This document shows, one piece after another, positions 1,501 to 47,405 of a stretch of DNA of 64,000 bases. How positions within the stretch are numbered: position 1 is the first letter of the stretch; each line of letters opens with the position of its first letter. The DNA lies in the NCBI GenBank assembly GCA_003194525.1, contig NBIV01000199.1:1-64000 (forward strand), written 5' to 3'. Both the position numbers and the translations under genes were made by a program. The DNA is from Gracilariopsis chorda. Lineage: Eukaryota; Rhodophyta; Florideophyceae; Gracilariales; Gracilariaceae. The notes beneath the pieces are model-generated. The model was given only the letters and a program-made list of their open reading frames with translations, was not told the origin of the DNA and ran no database searches.

Positions 1501-2212
1501 TCAGTCAGCCTTCTTGTGGTTAAACCTGCCGCAGTAGTGACACTTGATCTTCCTCTTCCTCGAAGAGCTACTTCTGACATTTAGTGCTCTCGCGCCGTCC
1601 CCTGCAGACACATTCTTCTGAACAAACGCTTCCTTGGAAATCAGGAGAGCCACAGCATCCGGTAAAGTCTTTTCCATGCCTCGAATTACTTCTGCAGTTA
1701 CCTGGAACTCCTCGCGTAGCCCTCTAAGCAACGCTCGAAGCTTTTCCGGATCATCAATAGAGTAACCAATTCCAATGAGGGTCGACTCAAGCTCTGCCAA
1801 ACGAGCACGGTACTGCAGGACAGACTCGTCGGCCAACATCTTCATACTCTGATACTTATCCAGAAGAGCATCTCGGCTGGCCTGACTAACACTCTGGTAC
1901 TGTGACTTCAAAGTCCTCCAAACCTCGGAGGGCTCCGTCATCTCCATGATAGGAGCAACACAAGAATCGTGTACCAAAAGAAGGATGGTAGACAAAGCTG
2001 TGTCTCTTCTACGGGCATACTTGTCGTATCCAGGATCCTGCAGTCCGGGCTCTTTCTCAGTACCATTGACGATAGCCCACAGCCCTTTGCTCTTCAAAAC
2101 AACTTCTAACTTCTTGGACCACATAAAAGTAGTTCGATGCAGTGAGCAAAGGTAGACGAACCTTCTGAACATCAATTCCTACGGAGGACTCAGAATCACC
2201 TAGGAGGTTCAT
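1501..2212 (-). pseudogene. gag: Copia gag, unit 1 (frameshifted)
   Basis: Same protein as the unit 2 and 3 Gag, starting at the Met-Asn-Leu-Leu start at 2212. An extra A in the run at about 2122-2128 shifts the frame shortly after the start, so the N-terminus is separated from the rest. The remaining part carries the Copia Gag helical core (UBN2-type) and a zinc knuckle whose last cysteine codon is UGA at 1501-1503, as in the other units. Confidence 0.85.
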
Positions 2213-2258
2213 GGTAGAAACTGAGCAGCACAAACAAGACGAATAAAAACTCACAACA

Positions 2259-2490
2259 GAACAGATTCTGGGCAATAACCTTTTACAGGTTGACGAATCA
2301 GCTTATCGCTTATCTTTACTCACAAGACAACCAGAATGGTTCTCATATAGTCCTCGAGGGCGAACAAAATATCTTCTATATCATCAGCGCACATGACAAT
2401 TCAATCTAACGAGATACCTGTAAACAATGTATAGAATGTAAATAAGCATGTAAACAATTCACTCATGCAAACAATTCACTATTAACATCA
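2259..2490 (-). repeat. Copia LTR shared by units 1 and 2
   Basis: Homologous to 6555-6800 but shorter by small deletions (for example in the stretch around 2258-2262 and 2386-2430). The polypurine tract of unit 2 lies just above it at 2491-2505. Confidence 0.75.
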
Positions 2491-2502
2491 CTTCCCCTCA
2501 TT

Positions 2503-5500: not shown

Positions 5501-5795
5501 AAATTGCAATGCACGGAACAGTGCCTTTCCCCTTCACATCGAGCTTCGTTCCATCTCCGATTTCCACGTGAACTATCGAGGACGGGACCACACCAGAGAT
5601 AAATGCATCTGATTTGTTACACATATGCTCGGTAGCACCAGAGTCAACGAACCACTTTCCGGAAGATCCAGTGATACCAGCAACAAGAGCCCTTGCAACA
5701 TGTAAGGCACTATCAGCGCCCCCAGCGTCCTTGTTTTCTGAACTCTCATTAACACGATGTTTAGGACGGTACTTAGGGCTCTCTGGGTTGTCATA
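2503..5795 (-). pseudogene. pol: Copia pol, unit 2 (protease, integrase, RT, RNase H; frameshifted)
   Basis: Opens in frame with gag after the UGA. Order on the minus strand: protease DSGA, HHCC finger (HNRLGH...CESC), integrase core with the D, D and E motifs (LVHSD, IRMDNS, SPESNGKAE), a Ser/Glu-rich linker, RT with YVDD at about 3450, and RNase H ending at 2503 with TADILTKPV. The order PR-IN-RT-RH defines Ty1/Copia. An extra A near 4424, deletions near 4021 and 3583, and insertions near 2964, 3146 and 3248 break it in addition to the frame breaks shared by all units, so it cannot make a full polyprotein as read here. Confidence 0.9.
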
Positions 5796-6506
5796 TCAGT
5801 CAGCCTTCTTGTGGTTAAACCTGCCGCAGTAGTGACACCTGATCTTCCTCTTCCTCGAAGAGCTACTTCTGACATTTAGTGCTCTCGCGCCGTCCCCTGC
5901 AGACACATTCTTCTGAACGAACGCTTCCTTGGAAATCAGGAGAGCCACAGCATCCGGTAAAGTCTTTTCCATGCCTCGAATTACTTCTGCAGTTACCTGG
6001 AACTCCTCGCGTAGCCCTCTAAGCAACGCTCGAAGCTTTTCCGGATCATCAATAGAGTAACCAATTCCAATGAGGGTCGACTCAAGCTCTGCCAAACGAG
6101 CACGGTACTGCAGGACAGACTCGTCGGCCAACATCTTCATACTCTGATACTTATCCAGAAGAGCATCTCGGCTGGCCTGACTAACACTCTGGTACTGTGA
6201 CTTCAAAGTCCTCCAAACCTCGGAGGGCTCCGTCATCTCCATGATAGGAGCAACACAAGAATCGTGTACCAAAAGAAGGATGGTAGACAAAGCTGTGTCT
6301 CTTCTACGGGCATACTTGTCGTATCCAGGATCCTGCAGTCCGGGCTCTTTCTCAGTACCATTGACGATAGCCCACAGCCCTTTGCTCTTCAAAACAACTT
6401 CTAACTTCTTGGACCACATAAAGTAGTTCGATGCAGTGAGCAAAGGTAGACGAACCTTCTGAACATCAATTCCTACGGAGGACTCAGAATCACCTAGGAG
6501 GTTCAT
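5796..6506 (-). CDS. gag: Copia Gag, unit 2
   Basis: A 236-codon reading frame from ATG at 6506 to UGA at 5796. I prefer this Met over an upstream in-frame ATG at 6548 because it starts the part conserved in all units. The N-terminal segment (LPLLTASNYFMWSKKLEVVL) matches the DUF4219/UBN2 Gag architecture of Ty1/Copia elements; it forms the particle that packages element RNA. The C-terminus is basic (SSSRKRK) followed by a CX2CX4HX4C zinc knuckle in which the fourth ligand is replaced by the UGA stop. The frame stays open after the UGA into protease. The protein may be terminated there with a three-ligand knuckle, or the stop may be an inherited lesion. Confidence 0.85.
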   Translation of the reverse strand: MNLLGDSESSVGIDVQKVRLPLLTASNYFMWSKKLEVVLKSKGLWAIVNGTEKEPGLQDPGYDKYARRRDTALSTILLLVHDSCVAPIMEMTEPSEVWRTLKSQYQSVSQASRDALLDKYQSMKMLADESVLQYRARLAELESTLIGIGYSIDDPEKLRALLRGLREEFQVTAEVIRGMEKTLPDAVALLISKEAFVQKNVSAGDGARALNVRSSSSRKRKIRCHYCGRFNHKKAD

Positions 6507-6554
6507 GGTAGAAACTTGAGCAGCACAAACAAGACGAATAAAACTCACAACAGT

Positions 6555-6800
6555 TGAACAGATTCTGGGCCAATAACCTTTTACAGGTTGACGAATCAGC
6601 TTATCGCTTATCTTTACTCACAAGACAACCAGAATGGTTCTCATATAGTCCTCGAGGGACGTAGTGCGAACAAAATATCTTCTAGATATCATCAGCGCAC
6701 ATGACAATTCAATCTAACGAGATACCTGTAAACAGAATGTATAGAATGTAAATAAGCATGTAAACAATTCACTCATGCAAACAATTCACTATTAACATCA
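6555..6800 (-). repeat. Copia LTR shared by units 2 and 3
   Basis: Same block as at 10862-11107. At its upper end it abuts a purine-rich tract on the minus strand (complement of 6801-6815, GAATGAGGGGAAG), the polypurine tract of unit 3, immediately before TGATGTT. It therefore acts as the 3' LTR of unit 3 and the 5' LTR of unit 2. Confidence 0.8.
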
Positions 6801-6812
6801 CTTCCCCTCATT

Positions 6813-9800
6813 CTAGACAGTCTCTTTCATGTCAAGACCTATACCACGGCAATGATTATTGTCAGTGGCAGCATCAACTGGTTTCGTTAATATATCTGCA
6901 GTCATGACATGTGTCTCAACGTATTCCAAACAAACATCTCCTCGTTTCACATGGTCGCGAAGAAAATGGTACCGAATATCTATGTGCTTCGTACGTTCAC
7001 TGCACACCGTGTCGTTGCTTAGACGCATTGCTCCTTGATTATCACAACCAATTACCATACCTTTCTCGGCCCAAAGTCCAAGTTCAATCATAAGTGAACG
7101 GAGCCAAAGAGCTTCTCGTTCTGCATTAGAGACGGAGACATATTCAGCTTCAACTGTAGACTGCGCCACAAGAGATTGCTTCTTCGACCGCCAGCTAACA
7201 GCTGCACCAGAGGTGATAAACACGAAACCTGCAGTTGACTTACGGTCGGTGGTATCGCCTGCAAAATCAGAATCAGAAAACCCTTTCATACTGTCAACAC
7301 GTTGGACAAACATCAAGCCTACATCTTTGGTGCCCTTCAGATACCTCAAAACCCGTTTCGCAGCCCTCCAATGTTGTTCACGAAAGGTATCCATGAAGCG
7401 GCTTAGATAGCTGACAGAGAATGCAATATCTGGTCGACAAGTGTTCGAGAGGTATATCAGAGCGCCAACAAGTTCCTTGTACGGAAGGCCTCTTACTTCT
7501 TCATCCCGCACTCCATCCAACGCATAGTGTAAGATCATGGGAGTCTTTACCGGTGCACAAGATTGCATGCCAAACTGATGCAAAAGGTGAGCGATCATGC
7601 TCGCATTATGAACCTTCAATGTGCCATCTGTGCTGCGAACTACACTCATCCCAAAGGAACTTAGCGTCATCGTTCTCGACACGAAGATCTACATATCTCT
7701 TTAAGAACGATATGACCTCCGCCAAAACCTTTGAATTCTGAGAGGCAACGAGAATATCATCCACATAGATGATCAGTACTACCAAAGAGGAATTGGTTTC
7801 CAAAAAGTATAGAGCTGGATCTCCTTGAGAGCAATTGAAGCCAAACTTGAGTAGGATAGGGTGAATGAAGTTCCGAAACGCTCTTGATGCCTGCTTCAAG
7901 CCGTATATGGCGCGTTTGAGCTTCAGCACTTGACCTTCACTTCCTTGGACCTCAAAGCCTGGGAACTGTTTCATGTAGACCTCTTCATCTAACTTGCAAT
8001 ACAAAAACGCAGCTTTGATGTCTAGACGAGTGAATTCCATCCCTTGGTCAACAATGATCGAAAGTAACAGCCTCACAGTAGCATAATTCACGACGGGAGA
8101 AAAGATTTCGCCGTAATCAATCCCAAATCTCTGCATGAACCCCTTCGCCACTATTCGGGCTCTGTTCCTCGTAACCACACCACAAGAGTTGTGCTTACGT
8201 CCGAAGACCAGTCAATCGGAAAGACATGCGGCGGACAGGTGACCAATTCGATGACATCTCTCTCTCGTAGATTGTTCACTTCATGCGCCATTGCCAACCA
8301 CCATTGCTCTCTCTTAGGTGACTGCATAGCCTGCTCAAACGATTGTGGGAGATTGTTATCTGTAATTTCTAACAGGCAGTTTGCAATGAAACTCTCAGGT
8401 GAATAGCGCAAGGGTGCAGAACGCTGACGAGAAGATCTCCTAAGTGGGGGTTCAACAAGAACATCAGATTCAGTTGGATTGCTGTCTTCGCCTTCAGGTC
8501 CAGTAGATCCTTCTCCCAAATCTCCTTCAGTAAAAGGGACATCCATATCGATCTCTTCCGTTCCATATTCCAAATCATCAAAAAGGGAGTCCCAGTCCAA
8601 AGATTCCTGGGCGTCTTCGTTTCCATTCTCAGTCTTCCAACCAAAACTTCGTTCATCAAACTTCACATCACGAGAGATAACAAAACTTCCTGACTCGGGG
8701 TAAAAGACTTTATAAGAATTACCCCTCTCAAAACCAACCAGGACCTCTTTTCTCGCTGTCGCCGCAAACTTACCACTCCTGAGCTTCTTAGGAATATGAA
8801 CGTATGCCGTGCATCCGAATATCCTAATGTGGGACATCTTCGGTTTCATATTGCGAACTGCTTCGAAGGGGGTTTTGCCAGTCGTCACAGCACTAGAAAA
8901 CGTTCGGTTCCTCAAGAACTTAGCGGTGGATACAGCTTCTGCCCACATCGCTCTCTACGAATTCCTTCGGGCAGATTATACAACATTGCCCTGGCAGCGT
9001 TGTTCAGGGTCCTGTTCAGCCGTTCAGCTTTCCCGTTCGACTCCGGGCTGTACGAAGCGGCTGGTTCAGAAAGTATGCCTCTTTGCTTCAGCCAATTCTG
9101 CAACTCGTGAGATAGATACTCCTTGGAATTGTCCATACGAATTGCCCTGACTGGCTTCTGGCATAGTGCTTCAAACTCTACAATCATTTCTCTAACAGAG
9201 GCCTGTACTTCTGAGCGACGATTAATGAATCGAACAAGAGAGTATGCACTGAACTCATCGTACAAAGTAACATAATAGTTTGCTCCACCAAAAGATGTGC
9301 ATTTCACTGGACCTACAACATCTGAGTGTACGAGTTCACCAGGTTCTTTGAATCGATCACGATTCACTCTAGGTCTTACGTCACGAACTGATTTTGACAT
9401 TTGGCATGATTCACAAGTTTCCCAGTCACAAATCTTCGTAAGGCCAACACCATCAACCAAGGGAACAGTTGGTCTCAAATGGGCTGCGCAAATGTGACCA
9501 AGACGATTGTGCCATAGTGTCGTTCTCTCAGATACGGATGCCGTGATCAGTGCTTTGTTCGGATTGAGGCCAAGACTCGGACGCATAACCACTTCATAAA
9601 TTCCATGCTTATGATTTCCGATCGCTACAAGAACAGTCTCCTTAGATTTCGGATGGCACACCTTACAAAGTCTTCGGCCTCCTTCATCCGTCACAAAGAG
9701 AACGTTGTAACCTTTTCTCTGTAGGGAACTGACTGACAGTAGATTAAATCTGAGGTTCGGCACAAGTTGTACCTCCGTAAGGTTTAGATGCATTGGTTTG

Positions 9801-10102
9801 CCAGTTAAAATTGCAATGCACGGAACAGTGCCTTTCCCCTTCACATCGAGCTTCGTTCCATCTCCGATTTCCACGTGAACTATCGAGGACGGGACCACAC
9901 CAGAGATAAATGCATCTGATTTGTTACACATATGCTCGGTAGCACCAGAGTCAACGAACCACTTTCCGGAAGATCCAGTGATACCAGCAACAAGAGCCCT
10001 TGCAACATGTAAGGCACTATCAGCGCCCCCAGCGTCCTTGTTTTCTGAACTCTCATTAACACGATGTTTAGGACGGTACTTAGGGCTCTCTGGGTTGTCA
10101 TA
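6813..10102 (-). pseudogene. pol: Copia pol, unit 3 (most intact copy)
   Basis: Protease-integrase are open from the gag UGA to about 8950, where a missing base (relative to units 1 and 2) shifts the frame inside the integrase. The linker frame runs 8948-8151, RT 8178-7606 (YVDD intact, full palm region), and RNase H 7682-6813 (DSDFAGD, SVSNAERE, HIDIRYHFLRDH). Two joins, before RT near 8200 and between RT and RNase H near 7650, are out of frame by one base in all units that contain them. A -1 step at TGG-TCTTCGG restores WVFGRKH and a +1 step at CTTTGGG restores FLGMS, both Copia consensus words. I read these as inherited lesions, with programmed shifts as the less likely alternative. Confidence 0.9.
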
Positions 10103-10813
10103 TCAGTCAGCCTTCTTGTGGTTAAACCTGCCGCAGTAGTGACACTTGATCTTCCTCTTCCTCGAAGAGCTACTTCTGACATTTAGTGCTCTCGCGCCGT
10201 CCCCTGCAGACACATTCTTCTGAACGAACGCTTCCTTGGAAATCAGGAGAGCCACAGCATCCGGTAAAGTCTTTTCCATGCCTCGAATTACTTCTGCAGT
10301 TACCTGGAACTCCTCGCGTAGCCCTCTAAGCAACGCTCGAAGCTTTTCCGGATCATCAATAGAGTAACCAATTCCAATGAGGGTCGACTCAAGCTCTGCC
10401 AAACGAACACGGTACTGCAGGACAGACTCGTCGGCCAACATCTTCATACTCTGATACTTATCCAGAAGAGCATCTCGGCTGGCCTGACTAACACTCTGGT
10501 ACTGTGACTTCAAAGTCCTCCAAACCTCGGAGGGCTCCGTCATCTCCATGATAGGAGCAACACAAGAATCGTGTACCAAAAGAAGGATGGTAGACAAAGC
10601 TGTGTCTCTTCTACGGGCCCACTTGTCGTGTCCAGGATCCTGCAGTCCGGGCTCTTTCTCAGTACCATTGACGATAGCCCACAGCCCTTTGCTCTTCAAA
10701 ACAACTTCTAACTTCTTGGACCACATAAAGTAGTTCGATGCAGTGAGCAAAGGTAGACGAACCTTCTGAACATCAATTCCTACGGAGGACTCAGAATCAC
10801 CTAGGAGGTTCAT
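10103..10813 (-). CDS. gag: Copia Gag, unit 3
   Basis: A 236-codon frame, nearly identical to the unit 2 Gag, with a handful of substitutions (for example Tyr-Asp-Lys-Tyr to His-Asp-Lys-Trp near residue 55). It has the same architecture: Gag helical core, basic stretch, and zinc knuckle ended by UGA at 10103-10105 in place of the final Cys. This unit lies at the 5' end of the array and has a full upstream LTR, so it is the copy best placed for transcription. Confidence 0.85.
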   Translation of the reverse strand: MNLLGDSESSVGIDVQKVRLPLLTASNYFMWSKKLEVVLKSKGLWAIVNGTEKEPGLQDPGHDKWARRRDTALSTILLLVHDSCVAPIMEMTEPSEVWRTLKSQYQSVSQASRDALLDKYQSMKMLADESVLQYRVRLAELESTLIGIGYSIDDPEKLRALLRGLREEFQVTAEVIRGMEKTLPDAVALLISKEAFVQKNVSAGDGARALNVRSSSSRKRKIKCHYCGRFNHKKAD

Positions 10814-10861
10814 GGTAGAAACTTGAGCAGCACAAACAAGACGAATAAAACTCACAACAGT

Positions 10862-11107
10862 TGAACAGATTCTGGGCCAATAACCTTTTACAGGTTGACG
10901 AATCAGCTTATCGCTTATCTTTACTCACAAGACAACCAGAATGGTTCTCATATAGTCCTCGAGGGACGTAGTGCGAACAAAATATCTTCTAGATATCATC
11001 AGCGCACATGACAATTCAATCTAACGAGATACCTGTAAACAGAATGTATAGAATGTAAATAAGCATGTAAACAATTCACTCATGCAAAAAATTCACTATG
11101 AACATCA
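10862..11107 (-). repeat. Copia LTR, outer 5' copy of unit 3
   Basis: On the minus strand it begins TGATGTT at 11107, exactly where similarity with the other LTR copies ends. The lower boundary is placed at a TGTTCA at 10862, giving about 246 bp, but the 3' edge is uncertain because I see no clear tRNA-type PBS next to it. The flanking bases after 11107 (ATATG on the plus strand) would be the candidate target duplication; the matching copy lies left of the window. Confidence 0.7.
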
Positions 11108-13600
11108 ATATGCTTTGGATATTCTTAGTGCTCGCAAAGACAGTTCAGAGTACAATGTGCACATTCTTAATCAGATGCAGAAGTTTATATCTTCGGATGC
11201 TTTTCTACTATATGCGAAGCTTCCTAGCGCCGGTGGAGTGGATGGTGCTATGCAGCAGTTATGTGAAGATTGTAATTTTACGCGTATAGAATGGAACATG
11301 CAAATGGATGATAGCGGTCCACGCCTCTTTTGCTGGCTTATGGGAACATGCCAGTCTTATACTGGATACAAAAGAAGAAGTCTTTATTGCGAATGTTTGC
11401 ATTGCTAATCATTTGCGTGAGTACGTCCTCTTCATCTGTAGAGCGAAGCTTCAGCGCTCAGAAGCGGATATGAACGTCAATTCGAAACCGTCTCCACCTG
11501 GAAAAGGTAAAGAAGATGGTCTTCTGTGCATTAAAAAATGCCATTTTTAACTCACTTATCGCCCCTTGTCAGGGTACAAAAGAACCTCATCAACACAAAC
11601 CAGGAACGGCTCGGAGCTTCTGCGACAACAGGGGAATGGATGGGACTGATGAGTTTATTAGTCATGCAGGTGAGGAGCTATCAGATGGTGAAGAATTAGA
11701 AGGGTGTTGGATTGGGAAGTAATCAACGATGATTATTTGCCACTTTTGGATGTAGTGGAGATGGAAGCCATTCTCGAAGCATAGAAGCCGCAGTTTATTG
11801 TGGTGTCGTTTTTGGATAGATAATCTCTCTCTAGAGGTTTATTTCTTTTGTAGTTGGTCAATTCATCGCAAATCTATGCTCATCCCATGCCGTCTTGATT
11901 AAAACCATCACAAGGACATGTTCCGGATCTCCCAAAAGGTCAACCAACCCGTCTTATTGATTTATTCTATTCGCTGTTCTAATGTTAGTGCTTTATCGTC
12001 GTACATATCTACAACAGGGCAGTACGATTGGGTGTGGTGGGCGGGATGACATTGTGCTTTGGACGAGAGAGAGACGGTTGTGAGGTGAGAACGGGTTGAA
12101 CCTCGTCATCGGAAAGTTTGTCGATGCCCCAATCATCTTCCTCAGACAAGTCTCGGGTATCGCTTTGCGTGGGATGGTTATGTAGACGGTAAAGCTTTAA
12201 GAGTTAATTTGAAAGATGGGCAAGAACACTAATCGACTGGAAACGTAGTGCTTCCATTGAGGATGAAGAATGTAAGGGTGTGCGGAATGTGGTAGTTTGG
12301 CGGAGCATGGTTTGCGTTTCTTTTGCAGGAAGCTATTAACCATGTTGCGTTCCAGATCTACCAACGGTACGTATCTATAGTTTAACTCTACCAATGCTCT
12401 TTCATCTTCCGCAACACTCCAAAACTTACAAATGTCCCTCTCCTTTTGAAGCCAAAACAAAAGTTGAAAAAAAAATGATTCCCAGTTCCAAACATGCAGC
12501 GGATTGCACAATGTCTAAAGGAGGAGATTAAAGGCAAGATGGGGTAGCAAAGGCTGGAAGTTGATTGGAGGCAATTGAACTCCTTTCGGACGGGTTTCGA
12601 GAGAAACGGCGCTCATTAGGACGTGCCCAGCGCAGACGATCTTTGGCGCGTGGGAATTTGAAATGAAGTGGGCGCGTGGAAGAAGGATATGACTTTTACG
12701 TGTCGCCCTGTTTGTCCTTGTTGAAGAACCATCGCAAATGATGGTAGTGTTTCTATGGGGCGCAAGGGGGGGAGGTTGGGACGGTATCGTAAGTGACTGA
12801 ATCGGACTCCACGCATAGGGAATAAGTTGAGGAGAAGCAGGAGGGTAAGGAGAACGGGGAAGAGGCGAAGGATAGAACGGAGAGCAAATGCAAAGAAAGA
12901 GGCTGATGTGAGACGGCAGATTTGAAGTAGTGCAGCGAAGAGGAGAACTGAGATGGCCAGCGAGATGTAGAGGGCGATGATTGGGAAGGCGTCATGCCGA
13001 GGGCATCAAAGTGGAAGTGAAGACCTCATGATGAAGGTGAAGTTGACAACGACAAAACACGCCAGCGCTATACAATGGGTTGTGTCAATTAAATTTTGGT
13101 GCGTCAACTTGACACTGTGAAGCTGACGTAACAGAATTTTGGTTCTACCAAACAGTTTTAAGTACGTCGGTAATTCAAGCAACTGACAAGTAGCATTGTA
13201 TAAGACGAAGATGTCTTCTGACTATCCTGCGCAGCAGTACGTCAACGTGGTACATGCTGTACAGCGATTGGGTTTTCTCAAAGGTTGTAATACAACCTTT
13301 CAAAAGATTCAAAAGGGCCGGCCATGTAACGAAGTCATGGCAGAAACTCAAAAATTTCTTGCGCAACCCTATAAGTTTTGGAAGCGAAGAAACATGGCTT
13401 ATGAGGAGAAAGAAAATATGAAGCAAGACATTCTTAAACATAAACCAAGGAATTGTTCCTCACAACACCCTACCAGACGTGATAAAACTTCAAACAAAAG
13501 GTCCTAATCGTGGGCTTGAAGTGGTGGGAGAGGTAAACAATACTATTTAATGCAAACGTGCTCACCATCTACCTTTTTCATGTGATGTATCTGTTTCTGA
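11108..13600. other. Unassigned DNA between the Copia array and the old Gypsy relic
   Basis: Several short open frames on the plus strand (about 11108-11722 and 13196-13507) have gene-like composition in part but no motif I recognise. The first is cut by the Copia array, so it could be an interrupted host gene or older element. The plus frame at 13196-13507 lies just upstream of a Gypsy protease remnant and could be its gag, but nothing diagnostic supports that. I see no RNA gene. Confidence 0.4.
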
Positions 13601-17611: not shown

Positions 17612-17616
17612 TTAAC
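17612..17616. repeat. Target-site duplication TTAAC (left)
   Basis: TTAAC directly precedes the 5' LTR and is repeated directly after the 3' LTR at 27567-27571. It fixes both element ends. Confidence 0.9.
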
Positions 17617-18445
17617 TGTAGTGCAACGCCTTCAGGGAGGGATTCTTGGTACTTGAACGCTTTCCCGATATTATCGGTTGTGTAGTGTGTATATGAACTA
17701 CGCCCCACTATGGTGGATATGGGCACGTGGGACACGGTTTTGGGTCAATTGGCGGTTGGCCACAGTAGTGGATGTTGCCACGAAATGTGGAGTATTTTAG
17801 TTAATATTATTTGTTATTTTCACACCCATTTCTGGGAAGCTAGTACTTAGTGCGACGGCGCACTGCCGTCGCACCAGTAAACCTTCCCCAACAAGGGACC
17901 CCAACCTCGGGAATTGGCTCTAGTTGTTACCGCTTGCGCGCGTGCTCTACTCCTCCTTGGAGGGAAACGCCGTGAACCACGAGACATCTAACCCCCTTGC
18001 ACATCTAAAGAAGCCCATCCTTGGGAGTATAGTTGTTCCAATCACATTGGTGTTTCGCCCTGTATAGGGATTCCTGTTCACCGGCATTGCCGTATCTGTT
18101 CGTCGCTTTCGCGACTCACTTCGTCCTGCCTTCCTCCTCTTCGCCCTTCCTTTTTCCCCTTCTTATAGGGTAGCACCTCCGGCTATCCGCGGCCCTCGTG
18201 TGCGCATCCGCTCACACACCCCCACTTACGTGGAAACATACCTCTACTGAGGATCACACCCCGCTCACGCGGATACCGATTCTTCGCCTTCACCTCCCTG
18301 CGCGAGTCGCGACAGGTGTCCCTGGTCTTACAAACCGGCTTCGCCCTGACACCTCTGGGAGGGCTCTACCCAACTGGGTTCACCTCGTGAGAGGAAGATC
18401 CCGAAAGTCTTTCGGTGTTTTTCCCCTTTGGGGCATTGCACCACA
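17617..18445 (+). repeat. Chromovirus 5' LTR (829 bp)
   Basis: Starts TGTAGTGC and ends CACCACA; aligned end to end with 26736-27566. It contains a strong stem (GCGACGGC and GCCGTCGC around 17851-17871) and many smaller stems such as CCGAAAG-T-CTTTCGG near its end. A non-ATG open frame crosses its 3' part in both LTRs, but I do not consider it a gene. Confidence 0.93.
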
Positions 18446-18448
18446 AAG

Positions 18449-18461
18449 TGGTCTCCCGACC
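18449..18461 (+). other. Primer-binding site
   Basis: TGGTCTCCCGACC begins three bases after the 5' LTR. The initial TGG is what pairs with the CCA end of a primer tRNA. I cannot name the tRNA without a search. Confidence 0.7.
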
Positions 18462-18550
18462 TAGAATCGGTTTTTGTTTTCCCTTTTACGAGGTTTGTTT
18501 TTATTTACCGGAAGTTCCGTGATCGTTTCCCGTCGTAACGGTATTTTCTC

Positions 18551-20723
18551 ATGTCGAGAAATCCCTCCGATGCGGAGCCAGTGGTTACGCGTAGTCGCTC
18601 CCGCGACAACGCAGACACTTCCGAAGTTCGGTTCGTACCCCGTATCTCTATACGGACAAGTTCCAGCCGTACTGGCGCCGCCTCATCGCGGAATGATACC
18701 CCCGACCAGGAACCCCGGAACCTCCTTTCGCCTTCGTTATCACCCCCGCAGGGGAATGCAGCATCGACTCCGGCTGTTGCCGCAGTGCCCCAGGCACCCC
18801 GGCCTGCTCCCGCTGTCGCGGCTTCAAGTCCCCGTGGAACGGGCGATAACAACCCCCAAGGGACTTCCCTGGAATCCCAGGTCCGCGCTCTGTGGACTGC
18901 CCATGACATCCTTGTAGGGGAACTAAATTCGCTCCAAGAGGTGGTCTCGGCAACCCCCGTAAAGGAGGTCGCCGAGGAACTCCGTATTTTACGGTCTGAC
19001 GTCAACTCCGTGTTGGAGAGTTTGGGAGAACCCGCCACCTTCATTGAAGGAGTTGAAGCCCGATTTGATCGGATTGGTGCCCACCTGGAGACGCTGGAGC
19101 AGTTCGTCCTCATGGACAAACCATCCCCAGATGATCCGGTAAACGAGGCATCGCATAACGACCAGCTTGCTGGGAAGAAGAAACGCCGTCATCGACGGAA
19201 ACACCACCGAAAATATTCGGACTCCGATTCTTCGACATCGTCGGACTCATCCCGAAACCATTCGGTTAGCTCGAGCTCCTCGGACTCCGACTCGGAGGAC
19301 GAGAAGCGAGGCTACTCCTCCCGCTCGAAGCGGTCATCGGCCACTGAAGGTGTGGTCCGAACCCGCCAGAAGGGGAGAACACACCCCGGTCTACGGAATT
19401 GAAACCGACAAACCCGGATTACCGGAAGCTTTTATCATACCGGTACTACCGGCTCGAAGATTCGTCACTTGGACGTACGCCCCGTGGTACGGGAAAGGTG
19501 CGAGAATTCATTAAGCGAATGCAGCTCTCGCTCCGCAACCAGTATTTTACTGGAGAGGATCCGGTCCTAGTACTGGATTTCTTATCCCGCTTTGTAGCGG
19601 AGGCCGATATCCTCGTTATGAATGAGGGACAAGCCTATTTGGCTTTACCGTATTTCCTACGGGGAGTGGCGGAGGACCAATACACCTCTGTCAGAGGATC
19701 TTCTCGCGCCTCCGAGGGAGGAGTTACTTCCTGGCTGGAGGCTGTGCAGTATCTTCTGCGCTCCTAAGCCACCAACACCGCTATTCAGAAGGCTATCCTC
19801 GCTTTGCGAGATACACGCCAGCGTGCTGGAGAGACCGAGACCGATTACTCGGTGCGCCTTAACAAGGCTTTCCACAGATGTGGTAACGTATACCCCGCTG
19901 GGGAGCGCAGTACCATGTTCATTGATGGTCTTGACCGGGCAATCCGGAGTTTAGTTATGCGCTATCGGGAGGACAAGCGGAGGATCACCTACCTCGAGCT
20001 GGTCCAACACGCCCGAGTGAAAGGGAATGCACTTCGTGCAAGAACTCCGAACAATCGGTCTAAATCCGCCAAGGCGTTGTTGTTAGAAAGCGAAGCTTCC
20101 TCACTCCCGCTCACTGCGCATGGGAACCCTGGACAGGGATTTGATACCGTGCATTTGGCGCAGGAGGATGGTGTGTCGATACCGACCAGTGATTTACCGT
20201 CAACGACGGAGATGACCCGTGATGCGGGAACGGAAGACCCCGTTTTGTACGGTGGTAACAGTCGGGTTCAACCCCAACGACTCCCGTTTTCAAACGGTCA
20301 ATCCCGTTATCAACGGCCTGGATGAACTGACACCCCCCTGCGGTTCGCTTCTCCGATACTCGGAATAATAATCCGCGTGTCGCGGTATTGGCTCTCATTT
20401 GCCACCTGTGCTATGCCCATGGCCATACCTCCCCTCAGTGTATTTGTTCACTGAAGGATATGGCCAAGTTAGTGGCAAATTATGAGGCCCTCACTCCAGA
20501 GGAGCAACGTTCCGTCCCGATGGCTTCCTACCTCCGTGCTAAAACGGACTTTTCCCATGGCCTGCCACAGACCCCGCGTGCGCGGCAAGCTTCATACACC
20601 CCGATTCGGGAGATCACGCAACCATCCGTTGCAACCCCCGCTTATGCGGATAGAAACCCCCGTAAACGGGATGAAGCACTCGTTGTCGAGGAAACCAACC
20701 CACCGCCGAAGGCGGAAAACTAA
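18551..20723 (+). pseudogene. gag: Chromovirus gag (two frame breaks, one stop)
   Basis: ATG at 18551 is the first after the PBS. Frame 1 (to 19402) has a Pro/Ala-rich N-terminus, a heptad-like helical stretch (about residues 115-190), and then a lysine/arginine block followed by a Ser/Asp-rich, RS-like run. Near 19400 the frame shifts into the capsid part (19399-20325), which contains an in-frame TAA at 19765-19767 and otherwise stays open. A second shift near 20325-20388 brings in a canonical CX2CX4HX4C zinc knuckle (CHLCYAHGHTSPQC) at about 20400-20441, and the frame ends at TAA 20721-20723. Gag would form the particle and bind element RNA. Confidence 0.85.
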
Positions 20724-20732
20724 CTGAGGGAG

Positions 20733-20748
20733 TCTCCCCTTTGGGAGA
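20733..20748 (+). promoter_or_regulatory. Hairpin just after gag stop, possible frameshift stimulator
   Basis: TCTCCC-CTTT-GGGAGA forms a perfect 6-bp stem 9 nt after the gag stop. The pol frame is -1 relative to the zinc-knuckle frame and is open upstream through the overlap, and the sequence GGAAAAC lies at the end of gag. The geometry fits -1 frameshifting, but hairpins are so common in this element that this could be coincidental. Confidence 0.35.
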
Positions 20749-23700
20749 GGCGTCCTCAAGAACGAAGCTGTTGGCGCCGGAGGCGTCCTCAAGAACGAAG
20801 CTGTTGGCGCCGGAGGCGTCCTCGCCTCGCTCCCCGGTGAAAGTCCTCTCGAGGAAAGACACCGCTGACGCGGACTCTGCGCACCTTGGTGTGTTGCGTC
20901 GCCCGTGGATACGGAGTAAAAATGCCTGGATTCCCGGTAGATTCTTGGTCTTGGCCAAGCGCAATTATAAGGTCTATGCCGACCTTGGCCTTGATCCCCA
21001 GTTTATGGTGAGGTTTCTCACCGTCCTGGATACAGGTGCAGGCCCCAACTTTGTTGTGGAATCATTGGTACCCCCGCTTGTGTGGTCTCGTATCCGCTCT
21101 GACGCGGTCCCCGACATTTCGGATGCGAACAACAATCTGTAACAAACGGTGGGCACAGTGGATCTCGTCGTGAGACTCGGTACCTCTGTGGTGAAGTTGG
21201 ACTTCATCGTTTGCCGTTCACTGGCAGCACCAGTCATACTGGGATGTGATTACTGCGACAGATTTGTCGACGCAATCAGGCCCCGCCTCAGGCGTGTAGA
21301 ACTTGACGACGGATCGTCGGTTCCGATTGTTCGCCGCCCGCTAAAGCGGTCCTCTTGGAAACAAGTTCCGCTCTCTGCTACGCAGGAACCACCGCCCGCG
21401 TCCCGCGAGTCCACCAAGCCCCGCGTCGCTGCCTCCGTTTCTATACCGGCTGAGTCCCAAGTCTGGGTGCCGGTAAATTCCCGTCAACACGGTCTTTGGG
21501 TTATACAACCCCTCGCCTCGCTGTACGAGAAATCCCAGCTTGCGCTGGCTAATGGAATTGTCTCCATTTCCCCGGATGTTCCTCTCCGGATATTGGTTGC
21601 CAACCTTGGCAAACACCCCCAGTATCTGGTCAAACACCAAGTAGTTGGGAGTGTAACCCCCCATCCTATGGGATTGCTGCCAACAAAGATGACAGCCGCC
21701 GATGTACTCGGAGTTACCACCTCTTTTGAGGAGTTCGCCCCGCCGTCCGAAGACGTCAAGTCTAAGGAGGGGGAGGAAACCGCTACTTCAGCGTCGAACA
21801 TACCGAGTAACTCGGAATTGCGAACCACACCTGTTCCACAGGACAATGCTCCATCGAGCAACGACCGGATTGATCCGGATAAAGCACTTGAAGCGCTGGA
21901 CTTCAGCCACGTGCCAGAGTCGCACCGCGACAAACTCCGTACTATGTTACGGGAATTCACCACAATATGGGATGGCTCGCTTAACGAGATTAATGCAACG
22001 GAACACCGGATCGATTTGATCCCCGGTGCGCGATCGGTTGCACAACCCCCTTACAGGGCAGGTCCGAAAGCTCGGGAAGAGGATCAGTCCCAAGTGGACA
22101 AGATGCTCCGCGCAGGTGTGATTGAGCCCGCTCAATCACCCTGGGCATCCCCAGTTGTACTGGCTTTAAAGGCCGACGGAACCTGGACGTTCTGTGTCGA
22201 CTACCGCCGGCTCAATGCCGTGAATGTTAGGAACACGTACCCTATCCCTCGCATGGACGAGTGCATTCACTCCCTTGGAGACGCCACCGTGTTCACGGCC
22301 CTTGATGCCAATTGGGGATATTGGCAAGTACCTGTCAGACAGGAGGATCGCGACAAAACCGCATTCATTTGCCAAGCAGGAACGTACCGCTTCAAGCGGA
22401 TGCCATTTGGGTTTACCAACGCTCCCGCCACCTTTCAGCGTGCAGTAGTTATTCTACTCAACCGCTTTAAGTGGCGGAGTTGTCTGGTCTACCTTGATGA
22501 TATTATCATCTTCTCCAACTCGTTGGACGACCATCTCACTCACATCCGAGACGTGCTGACCGTACTCCGCGATGCGGGAATTACCCTCAAGTTGAGGTAA
22601 TGCGAGTTTTTCACAGATACTGTGAAGTACCTGGGTCACATTATCCGTCCTGGACGGTTAGCGATCGAGAAAGCTCGAGTCAAATCCCTCGTTGAGGCGA
22701 AAGAACCCCGTACTCAAACGGAACTGCGCTTCTTTTTGGGGCTGGTCAACGTCTATCGACGGTTTATCCCAAACTTTTCGGATACTGCAGCGCCCCTAAA
22801 CGCGTTGTTGCGAAAGGGGAACCCCCCAAAACTGGGAACATTTACGCGCGAGCAATCGGAAGCTTTTAACTCCTTGAAGGAGGCTGTCACATCAGCACCA
22901 ATCCTACATCTCCCAAAACTTGGGTTGCCATACTCCGTAGATACGGACTCGAGCGACTACCAAGTCGGGTGTGCTCTTTTTCAAACCACCCCCGAGGGGG
23001 AACGACATCCAATTGGTTATTGGTCGCGATCAGTCAATGTTCATGAGCGGAACTACTCCGTATCGGAGAAAGAGTGCCTCGCCGTCGTATGAGCGATGAC
23101 CACTCTGCGCCCCTACCTTATGGGAGTTCACTTCACCGTGTACACGGATCATTCCTCATTGAGGTGGTTGATGAATGTCTCCGACCCGTCGGGACGCCTC
23201 ATGCGCTGGAGACTCCGCCTCGCGGAATATGACTTTCAAGTCATTTATAAAAAGGGTGCGCAGAACACCCAGGCCGACGCTTTGTCGCGGTTACCCACAA
23301 GTGGGAAAGCACTCCCAACAGAGGATGATGAAGTCCCATGTTTCATGGCTATAGACCCGGATGATCCGGAATATGCCGTCGAGGCTAGGCCAGAAAACTG
23401 GGACGAGGATGCTGATTTTGACGAACTACTCGCATCGCGAGATAAATCAGAGAACCCGTTACCGGGAAACTTTGTACCGGTATCACCAGAAGAAATGATC
23501 CGAGAAAAATTCGGCGACCCATTCTGTACGAGAATTCGTGCCCGTATCAACGGCGGTGAAGATCTCCCTTTCGGGGTAAACGACAAAGGCTACCTCGTAA
23601 GGAAGGTCGAAGCCCGCCCACAGATCGTGGTACCTCATTCCCTGCAGTCGCGGGTGTTACATCTATCACACTACGCCCCCATTGGAGGTCACCCAGCTCG

Positions 23701-26482
23701 GAGGAAACTCTACCTAACCCTGCGAAGGGATTTCTATTGGCCCCCCATGGCAGTGGATTGCTACGCAACTGTGCGGTTCTGTAGCAAATGCGCGAAGAAT
23801 CGCGTCAAGCTCCGCAAAAATGCGAAGAAGATGAAAGTATTCCCCGCAAGGGCGCCACTCGAGTTTATGGCAATTGATCTTCTCGGACCACTACTCACCA
23901 CAAAACGTGGAAACAAGTTTCTACTTGTCATCACCGACCGCTTTTCTAAGCTGGTACGGACTGTCCCTCTTCGGAGGATAACCGCTCTCACGGTGGCCCA
24001 GGCTCTGGTGACGCACTGGATTTTTGTCTACGGTCCCCCTGTGGAGGTGCTCTCCGATAACGGGAAACAGTTCGTGAGCAAGTTCTTCCAGGATGTTTGT
24101 CGCATCTTGGATGTCAAGAACTTGTTCACGACTACCTACCACCACCAGTGTAATGGGCAAATTGAACGGTTTAACCGGACGTTACTCGCGGCGTTACGTT
24201 CCTACGTCGCTGACCACCCAACTAATTGGGATCCCTACGCTGATGCGGTAACCTACGCGAACAATACGCAGGTACATCGGACTACCGGAGTTTCGCCATT
24301 CGAGTTGGTTCTATCTAAAACACCCCCGCCTGTGGCGCTGGAACCCCAAGCTACCTTGGACAATTTCCCATCTGTGGGTATCTACCAGCAGCAATGGAAG
24401 CAATGGCTTTCCAAGCTGGTCCCCGCTGCGCGGAAGTATATGGCACGGGCCCAAGCCGCTTACAAGCGGGATTTTGACGCTCGCTTGCGAGGAAAGATCC
24501 CCCCGACTCGGGCAAATAACTACGTCTTCATCAGGAAGGAGTACTACAACCCGGAACGGGAGAAGCTTCACAAACTCTCGCCTGTGGCGGATGGACCCTT
24601 CAAGGTCATCTCTGTTAACACCGACACTGTCGTGGTAGAGATGGGCGACACACACGAACGGATTTCCCGTAATCGTGTTGTCCTTGTCCCTCCTCCCTCG
24701 TCAGAGGTAGTCCTGGATCCAGGCAACCCCGTTTCTACGGACTCTGCAACACCGGAACCATCCGGGAGTACTAGGCCAACGGTACTACCACACCCCAGCC
24801 GGGGACTCTCAGACCTACCGCCTCTGTCGGACTCACCGGCTCAGCCGGGTAATTCGGGCCCCTCAGCGCCCGCCCCTACCACGTCTGCCCCACTGGCGCG
24901 CATGTATACCCGCCAGGCGGGGAATGTTATCCCTTATCCCGCCGCTCCGTCTAAGGAGGGGGAGGAGAACACTCATTTTCGAGGAACGATATCGCCGTCG
25001 CAACGGGAAATACACCGTAACATACGGAACACTGACCGTGGAGCACGGAGTATGTCACGCAACACTAATCCCTCGTTCCCGGGCAGTGCTGTACAACAGG
25101 AACCAGACGCGCAGGCCCCGCAAAAGCGGCAAATACACCGTTTGTCACGGGAAAACGAGAAGCCTCACTCCAATACCGCAGCGGCGGAAAGGCAATCGCC
25201 CGATCTATCCCCGGAGGCATCGCCACAAACGCGGAAAACATACCGTACTACACGGGAAGTTGAAGCGCAACTACCGCACACCCCTGTCAGGGAAGGATCC
25301 CCGATAAGGGAGTATGGTGACGATTGCCCCCAATCCCCTGAGCAGGGCGATGCCTTGAAGCCGCCGTTGGCGGAAGTCCCCGCGGAAGCGGTTCAATCAG
25401 GTCGATCAGACCCGCGACTTGCGGAGAAGGGGCGCCCAGATACGCTGGCCTCACAGGGAAATACCCACACCCCTCTTGGGGAAAAAGGCAGCCAAGCCGC
25501 AGTCGAAGCTTTAAGCCCTGGCTCGCAAGCACCGGAAACGCCTCCCGTCTTTGACGGAATCGAAGCCCCCGCTACGGGGAATAATTTGCGCCAACCCCCG
25601 CAACCCTGCGGGGAAGAACCGAGGAACTCGGAAAAAACGCACGCCATCGCACGCTCGAGACCGGTCATACCGGACGCTGCTCCTCCGCGTAGAGACGGTG
25701 CACCGCACTTAGCGGCCAAGCCCCTGAAAAGGGTGTCATCGGCACCTGCCCGGCACCCCCCAAAGGGGAATTTTGACCAAAATACCGGTGTATCGGAGTT
25801 AGCCTCAGGCAACCCGTCAGTAGCCGGGGACACCACGGCATCGCTGGAACGTATGGTGCAGAGCGCTCGTGCGCCTGGCAGGGAGGCGGTTTGCCACCCA
25901 ATCACCGTGTCGCACGGGACCCCCCAGGGGATTGTGGAAATGCCGATTCCGCAGAAGCGGTCATCTTCCCGCAAACCCGCGGTTCGTGAGCTCAACCGCA
26001 AAGGCGGAGCCCAAGTCCCCCGCCGACTGGCGGTTCGCCCGCAATACCGCGAAAGCGGAAATGAACCTGCCCCAATGGGGAATGACTTGCCGGTGAAAAC
26101 CGTGACGCCACACACCCTCTTGAGGGATATTTTCCAGCATGAGCAGCGGCCACTAGGAAAGCGCACGGCAACGTCGGAGTTATCGCCGAACACCCTGCTA
26201 AGGGACATTATACCGCACAGCGGGCAGCCCCCGCAAGGAAGTACAACCACCACCCGGCACGGCCGGCAGGTCTACGAACGAGAGTTCGTAGTAGACCGAC
26301 TTGTCGGACACACCTGGGACCAGGATGGTATTCTACAATACCGCGTCCGCTGGTACGGGTATGACCCCAGTGGGGATACGTGGGAGCCAATTGAACACCT
26401 CCCACGGTCGCAGGTCCTGCGATACCACCGTCAAACCGGAACCGCAGCCCCAGCCACGCTGGTTAATGCCCAAGTTGGGTAA
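20741..26482 (+). pseudogene. pol: Chromovirus pol polyprotein, single frame with three stops
   Basis: One reading frame over 5.7 kb without any indel break. The protease has DTGAGPN at about 21035. TAA at 21140. RT carries MPFGFTNAPATFQR and YLDDII (about 22480-22510). TAA at 22598 lies just before a CEFF motif and TGA at 23090 sits where Gypsy elements have Trp in CLAVVWA. RNase H (VDTDSSD, TDHSSL) follows, then the integrase HHCC finger (23665-23795), DDE core (AIDLLGP, LSDNGK, QIERFN), a GPY/F-like module near 24590, about 500 residues of Pro/Arg/Gly-rich tail, and a chromodomain (26265-26430). Stops without indels suggest point-mutational death, or readthrough, rather than long decay. 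Confidence 0.93.
20750..20820 (+). repeat. 33-bp tandem duplication in pol
   Basis: Two adjacent perfect copies of a 33-bp unit encode an 11-residue repeat (EASSRTKLLAP) before the protease, in frame. It is a recent local duplication. Confidence 0.85.
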
Positions 26483-26726
26483 CGTTGCCGCGCGAGCGGA
26501 GAGCGATAGGAAAGGATAACAAGGCAAGGTCCGTCGAAGACGGAGAACTCAAACGAGAATCACCGTTCAAAACGGGAAAGTTTATTCAAGGGAGCAGCTA
26601 GCTCCCGACAACACTATACTACAATAGCCGGCTATGCCAGGAAAGAAGAACCGGAGAGGGCGTACGGGCTTTTATCACCCATTTTCGTCTGGGAACCCTC
26701 CGCGTCCGCGGTCGTTTTCCCTTCTT

Positions 26727-26735
26727 AGGGGGGGA
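26727..26735 (+). other. Polypurine tract
   Basis: AGGGGGGGA lies immediately upstream of the TG that starts the 3' LTR. It primes plus-strand synthesis in LTR elements. Confidence 0.85.
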
Positions 26736-27566
26736 TGTGTATTGCAACGCCCTCAGGGAGAGATTCTTGGTACTTGAACGCTTTCCCGATATTATGGGTT
26801 GTGTAGTGTGTATATGAACTACGCCCCACTATGGTGGATATGGGCACGTGGGACACGGTTTTGGGTCAATTGGCGGTTGGCCACAGTAGTGGATGTTGCC
26901 ACGAAATGTGGAGTATTTTAGTTAATATTATTTGTTATTTTCACACCCATTTCTGGGAAGCTAGTACTTAGTGCGACGGCGCACTGCCGTCACACCAGTA
27001 AACCTTCCCCAACAAGGGACCCCAACGTGGGGAATTGGCTCTAGTTGTTACCGCTTGCGCGCGTGCTCTACTCCTCCTTGGAGGGAAACGCCGTGAACCA
27101 CGGGACATCTAACCCCCTTGCACATCTAAAGAAGACCGTCCTTGGGAGTATAGTTGTTCCAATCACATTGGTGTTTCGCCCTGTATAGGGAGTCCTGTTC
27201 ACCGGCATTGCCGTATCTGTTCGTCGCTTTCGCGACTCACTTCGTCCTGCCTTCCTCCTCTTCGCCCTTCCTTTTTCCCCTTCTTTTAGGGTAGCACCTC
27301 CCGCTATCCCCGGCCCTCGTGTGCGCATCCGCTCACACACCCCCACTTACGTGGAAACATACCTCTACTGAGGATCACACCCCGCTCACGCGGATACCGA
27401 TTCTTCGCCTTCACCTCCCTGCGCGAGTCGCGACAGGTGTCCCTGGTCTTACAAACCGGCTTCGCCCTGACACCTCTGGGAGGGCTCTACCCAACTGGGT
27501 TCACCTCGTGAGAGGAAGATCCCGAACGTCTTCCGGTGTTTTTCCTCTTTGGGGCATTGCACCACA
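26736..27566 (+). repeat. Chromovirus 3' LTR (831 bp)
   Basis: Matches 17617-18445 end to end with about 2% differences. Some of the differences fall in hairpin arms; for example CCCCAACGTGGGG is perfect here but not in the 5' LTR, while the large GCGACGGC stem is perfect only in the 5' LTR. Confidence 0.93.
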
Positions 27567-27599
27567 TTAACCACAACGACGAATCTCCAAAAAGAGAAA

Positions 27600-47280: not shown

Positions 47281-47405
47281 GCTGAAAGTGACCTGTGGTA
47301 GAAGACGAGCTGTGTATAGTAGAGAAGATAATCCGAGCAAGATTCACTGCTTGTGTTGTGGCCGAAGCTTGACTGCAATTTCCGACTTGGGAAGTGGTCA
47401 CTGCC

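Follow-up and report, generated by a model that had tools for sequence, protein, structure and literature searches.

Why should a retroelement of a red alga be filled with minute perfect inverted repeats whose outer pairs are CC and GG, and what keeps them there? The question is raised by positions 17617–27566 of a 64 000-nt stretch of the Gracilariopsis chorda genome (hereafter the window), which a preliminary description had read as a chromovirus saturated with such micro-hairpins. Judged from its sequence, the element is a Ty3/Gypsy chromovirus, apparently a red-algal one. Its 5′ LTR (17617–18445) and 3′ LTR (26738–27566) are 98% identical, and it shows both the TG...CA ends and the target-site duplication expected of chromovirus LTRs, the unstranded TTAAC at 17612–17616 being repeated right after the 3′ LTR at 27567–27571. 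All other features lie on the + strand. The gag region comprises an N-terminal open frame of 283 aa (18551–19402) that includes a stretch both basic and rich in Ser and Asp and in which a Pfam search found no domain above the cut-off, middle pieces split by a stop in the window copy (19348–20325) and a C-terminal piece (20331–20723) with the CCHC knuckle CHLCYAHGHTSPQC, which is also present in the related locus L063 and matched Pfam zf-CCHC_2 only at E 0.19. An open frame with the reverse transcriptase (RT; 21149–22600; PF00078, E 8.5e-25), the RNase H and integrase (23096–24700; PF17917, PF17921 and PF00665), a linker region (24701–26248) and a chromodomain (26249–26482; PF00385, E 6.7e-12, matched in 26249–26479) follow, and the Pfam order RT, RNase H, integrase is that required of a Ty3/Gypsy chromovirus. 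A purine run at 26727–26735, seen directly before the 3′ LTR, is by its position a putative polypurine tract.

We counted hairpins under two definitions. With arms of at least 5 bp, loops of 1–6 nt, CC/GG at the base and 20 dinucleotide shuffles as the control, 90 were found in 17617–26740 against 8.6 ± 2.5, that is, 9.86 per kb observed and 0.94 shuffled, so that the previously offered equal-base estimate of 0.3 per kb was too low. The 3′ LTR, counted as 26741–27566, held 4 against 1.0, while the six other regions of the window gave 1 against 2.3, 1 against 1.2, 0 against 2.6, 3 against 2.8, 4 against 2.5 and 8 against 5.0. With CC..GG, at least 4 pairs, a span of 11–14 nt and 200 shuffles, 197 were found in 17617–27566 against 18.6 ± 4.3 (shuffle maximum 32), and 168 non-overlapping ones form an array over 17617–26740 (+ strand). 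Under the same definition, 2-kb stretches within the element held 39.3 on average and never fewer than 31 (n = 16), whereas those outside it held 2.3 on average and at most 14 (n = 101). The window's family carries about 20 hairpins per kb and some other families carry fewer. The Copia array, already described as free of the feature, was not enriched (5 against 6.2 in 1–12000).

The element is richer in GC (0.556) than most of the window, which might suggest that the hairpins follow from nucleotide content, codon usage or repeats in the proteins. This reading has practically no probability left, as dinucleotide, codon-order and synonymous-codon shuffles all fell far below the observed counts, the last giving 2.1 ± 1.6 against 17 for the gag N-terminal frame, 3.4 ± 1.7 against 23 for protease-RT, 12.5 ± 3.3 against 74 for RNase H-integrase-linker-chromodomain and 7.5 ± 2.6 against 44 for the linker (24701–26248). 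Hairpin-poor families of the same genome have equal GC (L037 0.564, L039 0.562), and the LTRs too are hairpin-dense, the 5′ LTR having 20 distinct hairpins (22 placements, two of them nested) that are shared by half or more of 30 aligned LTR rows. The earlier statement that LTRs and coding sequence are affected alike and in every codon phase was borne out, the phases being occupied 64/45/59, and the claim of saturation passes the shuffle controls proposed along with it. Hairpins fill the LTRs, gag and pol, and also an antisense gene found in other copies.

Four hairpins had been quoted individually and all exist: CCGTAT-ctct-ATACGG (18640–18655), CTCCGA-c-TCGGAG (19285–19297), CCCGCC-a-GGCGGG (24909–24921) and one given at 25597, which is in fact a 7-bp stem starting at 25596 (CCCCGCA-accc-TGCGGGG, 25596–25613). 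In 18400–19500, where about 16 stems with arms of at least 5 bp had been counted, 27 are present with any outer pair, against 6.5 ± 2.5. A further hairpin, ACCACAAAGTGGT (18440–18452), spans the junction of the 5′ LTR end and the leader, and another, CCGCTTCAAGCGG (22387–22399), lies in RT at a site where other families pair with different letters (CCGTTTCAAACGG in L062 and CCGATTCAATCGG in L056).

The hairpins share a strict shape: a span of 11–14 nt, 4–5 Watson-Crick pairs, a 3–4-nt loop, a CC/GG base and flanks that avoid pairing. Spans of 12 and 13 were observed 70 and 56 times (expected 4.0 and 4.1), and stems fade beyond 5 bp, where spans of 15 and 16 gave 8 against 4.4 and 9 against 5.2. 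Because pairing ends at 3–4-nt loops, the fold is that of a single strand; a double-stranded dyad site for a dimeric protein was ruled out by this halt at the limits of a hairpin loop and by the variable span. CC/GG ends numbered 181 against 18.2 expected and GG/CC ends only 21 against 15.9. Since exchanging CC/GG for GG/CC would leave 98% of 350 hairpins as stable or more stable, the polarity is not thermodynamic, and it suggests a reader of the hairpins. Outward extension of the stem is avoided, with outer flank pairs at 9/167 sites in the window (31.4 expected) and at 3/76, 5/73 and 2/46 in three further sets (22.2, 14.7 and 7.7 expected), compared with 33/233 at stemless CC..GG sites (42.7 expected). 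Read in the sense of the element, the flanks hold more A than T (pooled p = 2e-10) and more C than G (p = 7e-6); the first of these biases is weak in both the L054 family (0.53) and the antisense gene (18 against 15 in L008). We sought a loop consensus and found none; the CC/GG stem end with open flanks is a candidate for a shared recognition feature. A stability threshold, under which 4-bp stems should be richer in GC than 5-bp stems, was not apparent (0.63 against 0.59, no clear trend). Spacing near 21 nt exceeded random placement in the window (p = 0.001) and the L054 family (p = 0.002) and not in L062/L066 (p = 0.195); regular 21-nt phasing was rejected, as it is absent in L062/L066 and the pooled data did not go beyond the gap distribution (p = 0.25).

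Among stems with one mismatch, plus-strand wobbles numbered 49 (31.5 expected), the minus-strand type 80 (31.6 expected) and other mismatches 192 (126 expected), showing no preference for plus-strand wobble and lending no support to plus-strand RNA as the acting strand. The acting fold could accordingly be sought in single-stranded cDNA during reverse transcription, where it might serve strand transfer, compaction or protection, and the greater number of minus-strand wobbles points in this direction, as does the fact that every part of an LTR element, including U3, is at some stage minus-strand cDNA. A mutation asymmetry would nevertheless give the same wobble difference, and we know of no reader of CC/GG-closed mini-hairpins on cDNA; we hold this explanation to be improbable.

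In this genome, the feature marks a clade of chromoviruses. All 13 loci with an RT at least 70% identical were enriched (3.6–16.5-fold), whereas all 24 loci at 66% or less stood at 0.4–2.5-fold. A search of viral_contigs for relatives found none, and one of genome_contigs found a single locus with 36% identity, which belongs to a MAG labelled Aquifex and lacks hairpins (0 against 2.35). Protein P0001 of Agarophyton chilense is 87% identical to L062 and P0025, from another genome, 89% to L067; these matches, at the level of proteins, suggest that the clade is wider than this genome. The knuckle CHxCYxxxHxxxxC occurs in all five hairpin-bearing families with a readable gag and is degenerate in L037, L039 and L064; a CCHC knuckle is also found in L031, which lacks hairpins. 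The antisense open frame carried by many copies of the hairpin-bearing family contained 26–33 hairpins in four copies (3.2–3.8 expected). Its homologue at 56953–58962 of the window, considered as a hairpin-free control, was dropped because it is itself enriched (13 against 3.0 ± 1.7).

This frequent antisense frame lends some plausibility to the proposal that the hairpins protect the transcript against host RNA silencing or antisense pairing: short stems placed at intervals of a few tens of bases would leave few open 21-nt targets while being too short to pass as dsRNA and, forming on both strands, would slow sense-antisense annealing. The fading of stems above 5 bp, the avoided outward extension and strictly Watson-Crick pairing, which a fold acting on both strands would require, fit such a role. 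It leaves the CC/GG polarity unexplained, however, and long gaps remain between hairpins (mean 41.8, sd 39.9); moreover, an L064-type neighbour also has antisense open frames, yet its family is hairpin-poor in pol (2 against 5.7). We judge shielding to be unlikely, though not negligible.

Are the hairpins then maintained? In LTR copies, private and shared changes numbered 47/7 in arms and 129/61 elsewhere (p = 0.006; p = 0.001 with further pieces added, p = 0.07 for the 1.5-kb pieces alone), that is, arms mutate freely after insertion and are conserved in the replicating lineage. Between the window element and L063, changes fell at 14/431 arm, 22/186 loop and 288/2839 linker positions, and the slower change of arms relative to stemless CC..GG sites was significant in some comparisons only. 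Because arms decay after insertion yet stay conserved in the lineage, we conclude that purifying selection on the replicating element maintains micro-hairpins of fixed shape and free sequence; the element thus carries many dispersed stem-loops under selection, with RNA or cDNA as the acting strand. Of the causes suggested at the outset, selection on a folded nucleic acid is the one that fits best.

From family to family, the hairpins turn over. Paired-site double changes were compensated above control sites in 11/14 comparisons and below them in 3, a mixed answer to the earlier question of whether arms mutate without conservation of pairing, and within the lineage arms are conserved instead of compensated. 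Another suggested cause, template switching by RT that perfects quasi-palindromes without any function, would account for hairpins coming and going at high density, and 11 of the 23 sites with a hairpin in only one of the window element and L063 show three to eight differences across the whole span. The remaining 12 differ at one or two, though, and the two loci show at most one compensated double change. Arms keep their sequence in the lineage and are not converted to each other. Span and closing pair are fixed, whereas quasi-palindromes made in this way would have neither fixed, and the process does not predict the flanks either. Families with related RT in the same genome lack hairpins. We hold a mutational generator to be very improbable.

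We consider it a real possibility, if one short of even, that the hairpins are dispersed Gag docking sites on the genomic RNA, with binding as the prediction. The element's RNA-binding protein, most likely Gag via its CCHC knuckle, would read the CC/GG end of a 4–5-bp helix with open flanks, and not the loop. By occupying sites along the whole RNA, it would mark the element's own transcript, condense it and package it; any one site would contribute slightly and none would be essential. Docking of this kind would account for free loops, for site turnover at a kept density and for hairpins in LTRs, coding sequence and the antisense gene alike. In its favour we count the fixed shape, polarity, bounded helix, selection, clade restriction, independence of content, flank composition, shared knuckle and the role of the zinc finger in Ty3 packaging. 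We count against it the knuckle of L031, the missing plus-strand wobble preference, as an RNA fold should tolerate G-U, the lack of a loop consensus or of 21-nt spacing beyond the gap distribution, the uneven A-over-T flanks and the partial significance of two arm tests (the 1.5-kb pieces and the stemless sites). More tentatively still, the array may be a genome-wide structural code that arose once within chromoviruses. Its micro-hairpins, well over 100 per copy and free in sequence but constant in geometry and polarity, would be superimposed on all carried sequence and renewed as old ones decay. Gag would read them as a mark of self and wrap the RNA one site after another, so that the whole genome, and not a single signal, would encode packaging.

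How LTR retroelements choose their own RNA is poorly defined; in the available parts of the Ty3 literature, packaging depends critically on the zinc finger, and the cis-acting packaging sequences are not precisely known (PMC4974528, PMC11381356). A text search of the literature found no retroelement with such hairpins, and likewise no description of a silencing-escape or cDNA-folding version. The element resembles Ty3/Gypsy chromoviruses in its LTRs, gag, RT-RNase H-integrase order, C-terminal chromodomain and CCHC knuckle, and differs from Ty3, whose RNA is described without mention of such an array in the portions available (PMC11381356, PMC4974528), and from related families of its own genome, which lack the array. 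Having hairpin-bearing and hairpin-poor sister families, this one genome allows a direct comparison on RNA selection. Genome-scale ordered RNA structure (GORS; PMC7642675, PMC3950689, PMC3695492) likewise runs along a whole RNA genome; the algal element, however, repeats one small fixed shape and shows no increase in bulk folding. Over 300-nt pieces, mean z was −1.73 in the window and −2.03 in L054, compared with −1.84 and −2.93 in hairpin-poor L037 and L039 (15, 8, 8 and 8 pieces). As z is not lowered relative to the hairpin-poor families, bulk RNA structure was rejected. A further parallel is offered by the multiple dispersed packaging signals of MS2-type ssRNA viruses (PMC6281560, PMC4751978, PMC7793301), which, as far as the accessible sections of these papers describe them, are also many short stem-loops throughout a genome, with free sequence around a shared feature and a proposed joint role in assembly. 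Unlike them, the algal element shares a stem end with its flanks and no loop motif, places 168 non-overlapping sites in 9.1 kb, extends them into LTRs and an antisense gene, and has its contact with a capsid protein as a prediction. The array hints at an unrecognised way of packing, marking or protecting genetic material and, if its many signals are individually dispensable while under measurable selection, would clearly exemplify a structural code written over protein-coding sequence.

The stretch at 17617–27566 of the window is a single inserted copy of a Ty3/Gypsy chromovirus. Direct inspection shows a TTAAC target duplication on either side of it and LTRs that end in TG...CA; its two LTRs (17617–18445 and 26738–27566) are 98% identical, its gag pieces bear a CCHC knuckle, and it encodes reverse transcriptase (RT), RNase H, integrase and then a C-terminal chromodomain. 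Several of its reading frames are interrupted by stops and open copies are found elsewhere in the genome. By eye, a stretch of ∼33 bases (ggaggcgtcctcaagaacgaagctgttggcgcc) is repeated in tandem at ∼20745–20825 in the gag-pol region. In the genome compared (91 333 945 bases in 1081 contigs), all of the 150 RT matches scored, out of 3448 first-look candidates, were 93–100% identical, and the family is thus large. Among the 120 of 1248 protein matches listed, most of the named relatives of the RT belonged to the red alga Agarophyton chilense, which suggests a red-algal host. The contig QNXQ01000086.1, assigned to an Aquifex MAG but probably a eukaryotic contaminant, encodes an RT with 36% identity to that of the element; CC..GG hairpins are absent from this locus.

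The preliminary description of this chromovirus as dense in CC..GG micro-hairpins was borne out. With arms of at least 5 bp, 90 hairpins were counted against 8.6 ± 2.5 expected, and with at least four pairs and a span of 11–14 nt, 197 against 18.6 ± 4.3, where the highest of 200 shuffles reached 32. The excess is confined to the element, its boundaries coinciding with both element ends. Codon content, for which shuffled controls had been proposed, falls short as an explanation: three coding pieces held 17, 23 and 74 hairpins against 2.1, 3.4 and 12.5 in synonymous-codon shuffles. No CC..GG excess was found in the Copia region at 1–12000 of the window. On the minus strand of that region Copia-type ORFs recur, for example as near-identical frames at 1501–2175, 5796–6548 and 10103–10855, a layout suggestive of tandem or nested copies.

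The hairpins form a single-strand fold with strict shape and polarity. The excess of four-pair hairpins was maximal at spans of 12 (70 against 4.0) and 13 (56 against 4.1) and weak at 15 (8 against 4.4) and 16 (9 against 5.2). A fifth pair was present in 42 of the 56 hairpins of span 13, where a loop of 3 nt remains, and in 21 of the 70 of span 12, where the loop would be 2 nt, so that fifth-pair formation obeys the steric limit of a hairpin loop, as expected of a single-strand fold. The pair immediately outside the stem was avoided in the window (9 of 167 against 31.4) and likewise in three other loci (L054, L063 and L062). Stem bases were CC/GG in 181 cases (18.2 expected) and GG/CC in 21 (15.9 expected), and further pyrimidine-first ends (CG, TC, CT) were also in excess in L062 and L058. 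Stability does not explain this polarity, since swapping CC/GG to GG/CC gave equal or greater stability in 98% of 350 hairpins from six sets (mean −5.71 kcal/mol swapped versus −4.98 natural). On the element-sense strand, flanks favored A over T (pooled p = 2e-10), at 0.66–0.72 in five of six sets but at 0.53 for the L054 family, and a search for a loop consensus found none.

The LTR, ∼830 bp long, carries 20 distinct hairpins common to at least half of 30 aligned rows. In many copies of the family a long antisense ORF, absent from the window copy, sits between pol and the 3′ LTR. It lies ahead of the 3′ LTR and is unrelated to gag-pol in four copies (2–1486, minus strand, in L008; likewise in L021, L023 and L028), in one of which locus L071 links it to the end of pol. 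Its protein lacked an internal stop in 72 of 86 scored genomic matches (1930 candidates), gave no Pfam domain above cut-off, and has as closest named relative the G. chorda hypothetical protein BWQ96_03215 (55% identical). The four antisense-ORF regions held 31, 33, 26 and 31 hairpins, respectively, against 3.2–3.8, and synonymous shuffles of the ORF gave 6.2 ± 2.4 against 33. The hairpins therefore overlie any carried content, on either coding strand. Homologues of the antisense ORF at the right end of the window (56953–58962, plus strand) and beyond it on the same contig (65738–66865, minus strand) are 53% and 43% identical; they probably belong to the 3′ region of a different element, because an RT 95% identical to that of locus L064 lies directly past them on the minus strand. 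This antisense gene showed a moderate hairpin excess (13 against 3.0) and the L064-type pol was not enriched. Elsewhere in the window, two proteins similar by eye, each with a signal-like N-terminus, an acidic middle and a lysine-rich tail, are encoded at 46657–47340 (minus) and 49522–50232 (plus), apparently as an inverted gene pair.

Among loci sampled by protein search with two relatives, which do not represent every family in the genome, all 13 from other families with an RT at least 70% identical to the window's (L054–L063, L067–L069) were enriched 3.6–16.5-fold, and all 24 at 66% or less (L031–L053, L064) stood at 0.4–2.5-fold, with L049 and L050 highest. A 16-row RT tree, built without L067–L069, placed the eight hairpin-bearing rows in one fork, whose support of 93/88 is below the level starred by the tool. 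The hairpins are a trait restricted to one clade. Within it, density was 3.6–5-fold in L061, L069 and L058/L060, which are partly early-branching, and 10–16-fold in the L054 types, L063 and L068, as if the trait had been built up stepwise.

Selection on the hairpins acts during replication. In aligned LTR rows, private changes per column were more frequent in arms (0.270) than in linkers (0.205) or loops (0.155), so the arms are unprotected after insertion; shared changes were fewer in arms (0.040) than in linkers (0.090) or loops (0.127; p = 0.006), so the arms were protected in the replicating lineage, the shared class being blurred by the inclusion of both LTRs of single insertions. Two 1.5-kb pieces (9 and 6 rows) gave p = 0.07 alone and p = 0.001 pooled with the LTR. 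When the window copy was compared with L063, to which it is 90.6% identical, changed sites at the window's hairpins numbered 14 of 431 in arms, 22 of 186 in loops and 288 of 2839 in linkers (p = 4e-7), and at the hairpins of L063 34 of 526, 20 of 221 and 270 of 2709, respectively. Slower change of arms than of stemless CC..GG sites was significant in some comparisons only. The hairpins turn over between families: the window's pol has 53, of which L054 shares 9 unchanged and 2 altered yet fully paired, and the corresponding pol of L054 has 51 of its own. In 14 comparisons, the compensated share of double changes was above control 11 times and below it 3 times. Selection appears to target the presence and density of a shape rather than particular sites.

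We infer that the hairpins have a reader, for which Gag would be the best candidate through putative binding, because Gag has to recognize the RNA of its own element. All five hairpin-bearing families with a readable gag share one form of CCHC knuckle; the knuckle was degenerate in L037, L039 and L064 and not seen in L049, and L031, with a knuckle and no hairpins, is an exception. As to the acting strand, one-mismatch stems showed no plus-strand preference (49 of plus-strand wobble versus 80 of minus-strand type), which speaks for a fold in DNA, a fold on both strands or stems too short for wobble; folding of the cDNA or escape from silencing may alternatively be the role of the hairpins. Searches across the full text of open-access papers turned up no such retroelement, and we therefore rate the hairpin feature, not the chromovirus carrying it, as new.

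Among known systems, the hairpin-bearing element falls short of the bulk folding that marks GORS. Packaging in Ty3 depends critically on the zinc finger, and the cis signals involved are defined only imprecisely (PMC4974528, PMC11381356). Dispersed packaging signals (PMC6281560) are the closest working model, to which the array, its binding being putative, is likened rather than assigned.
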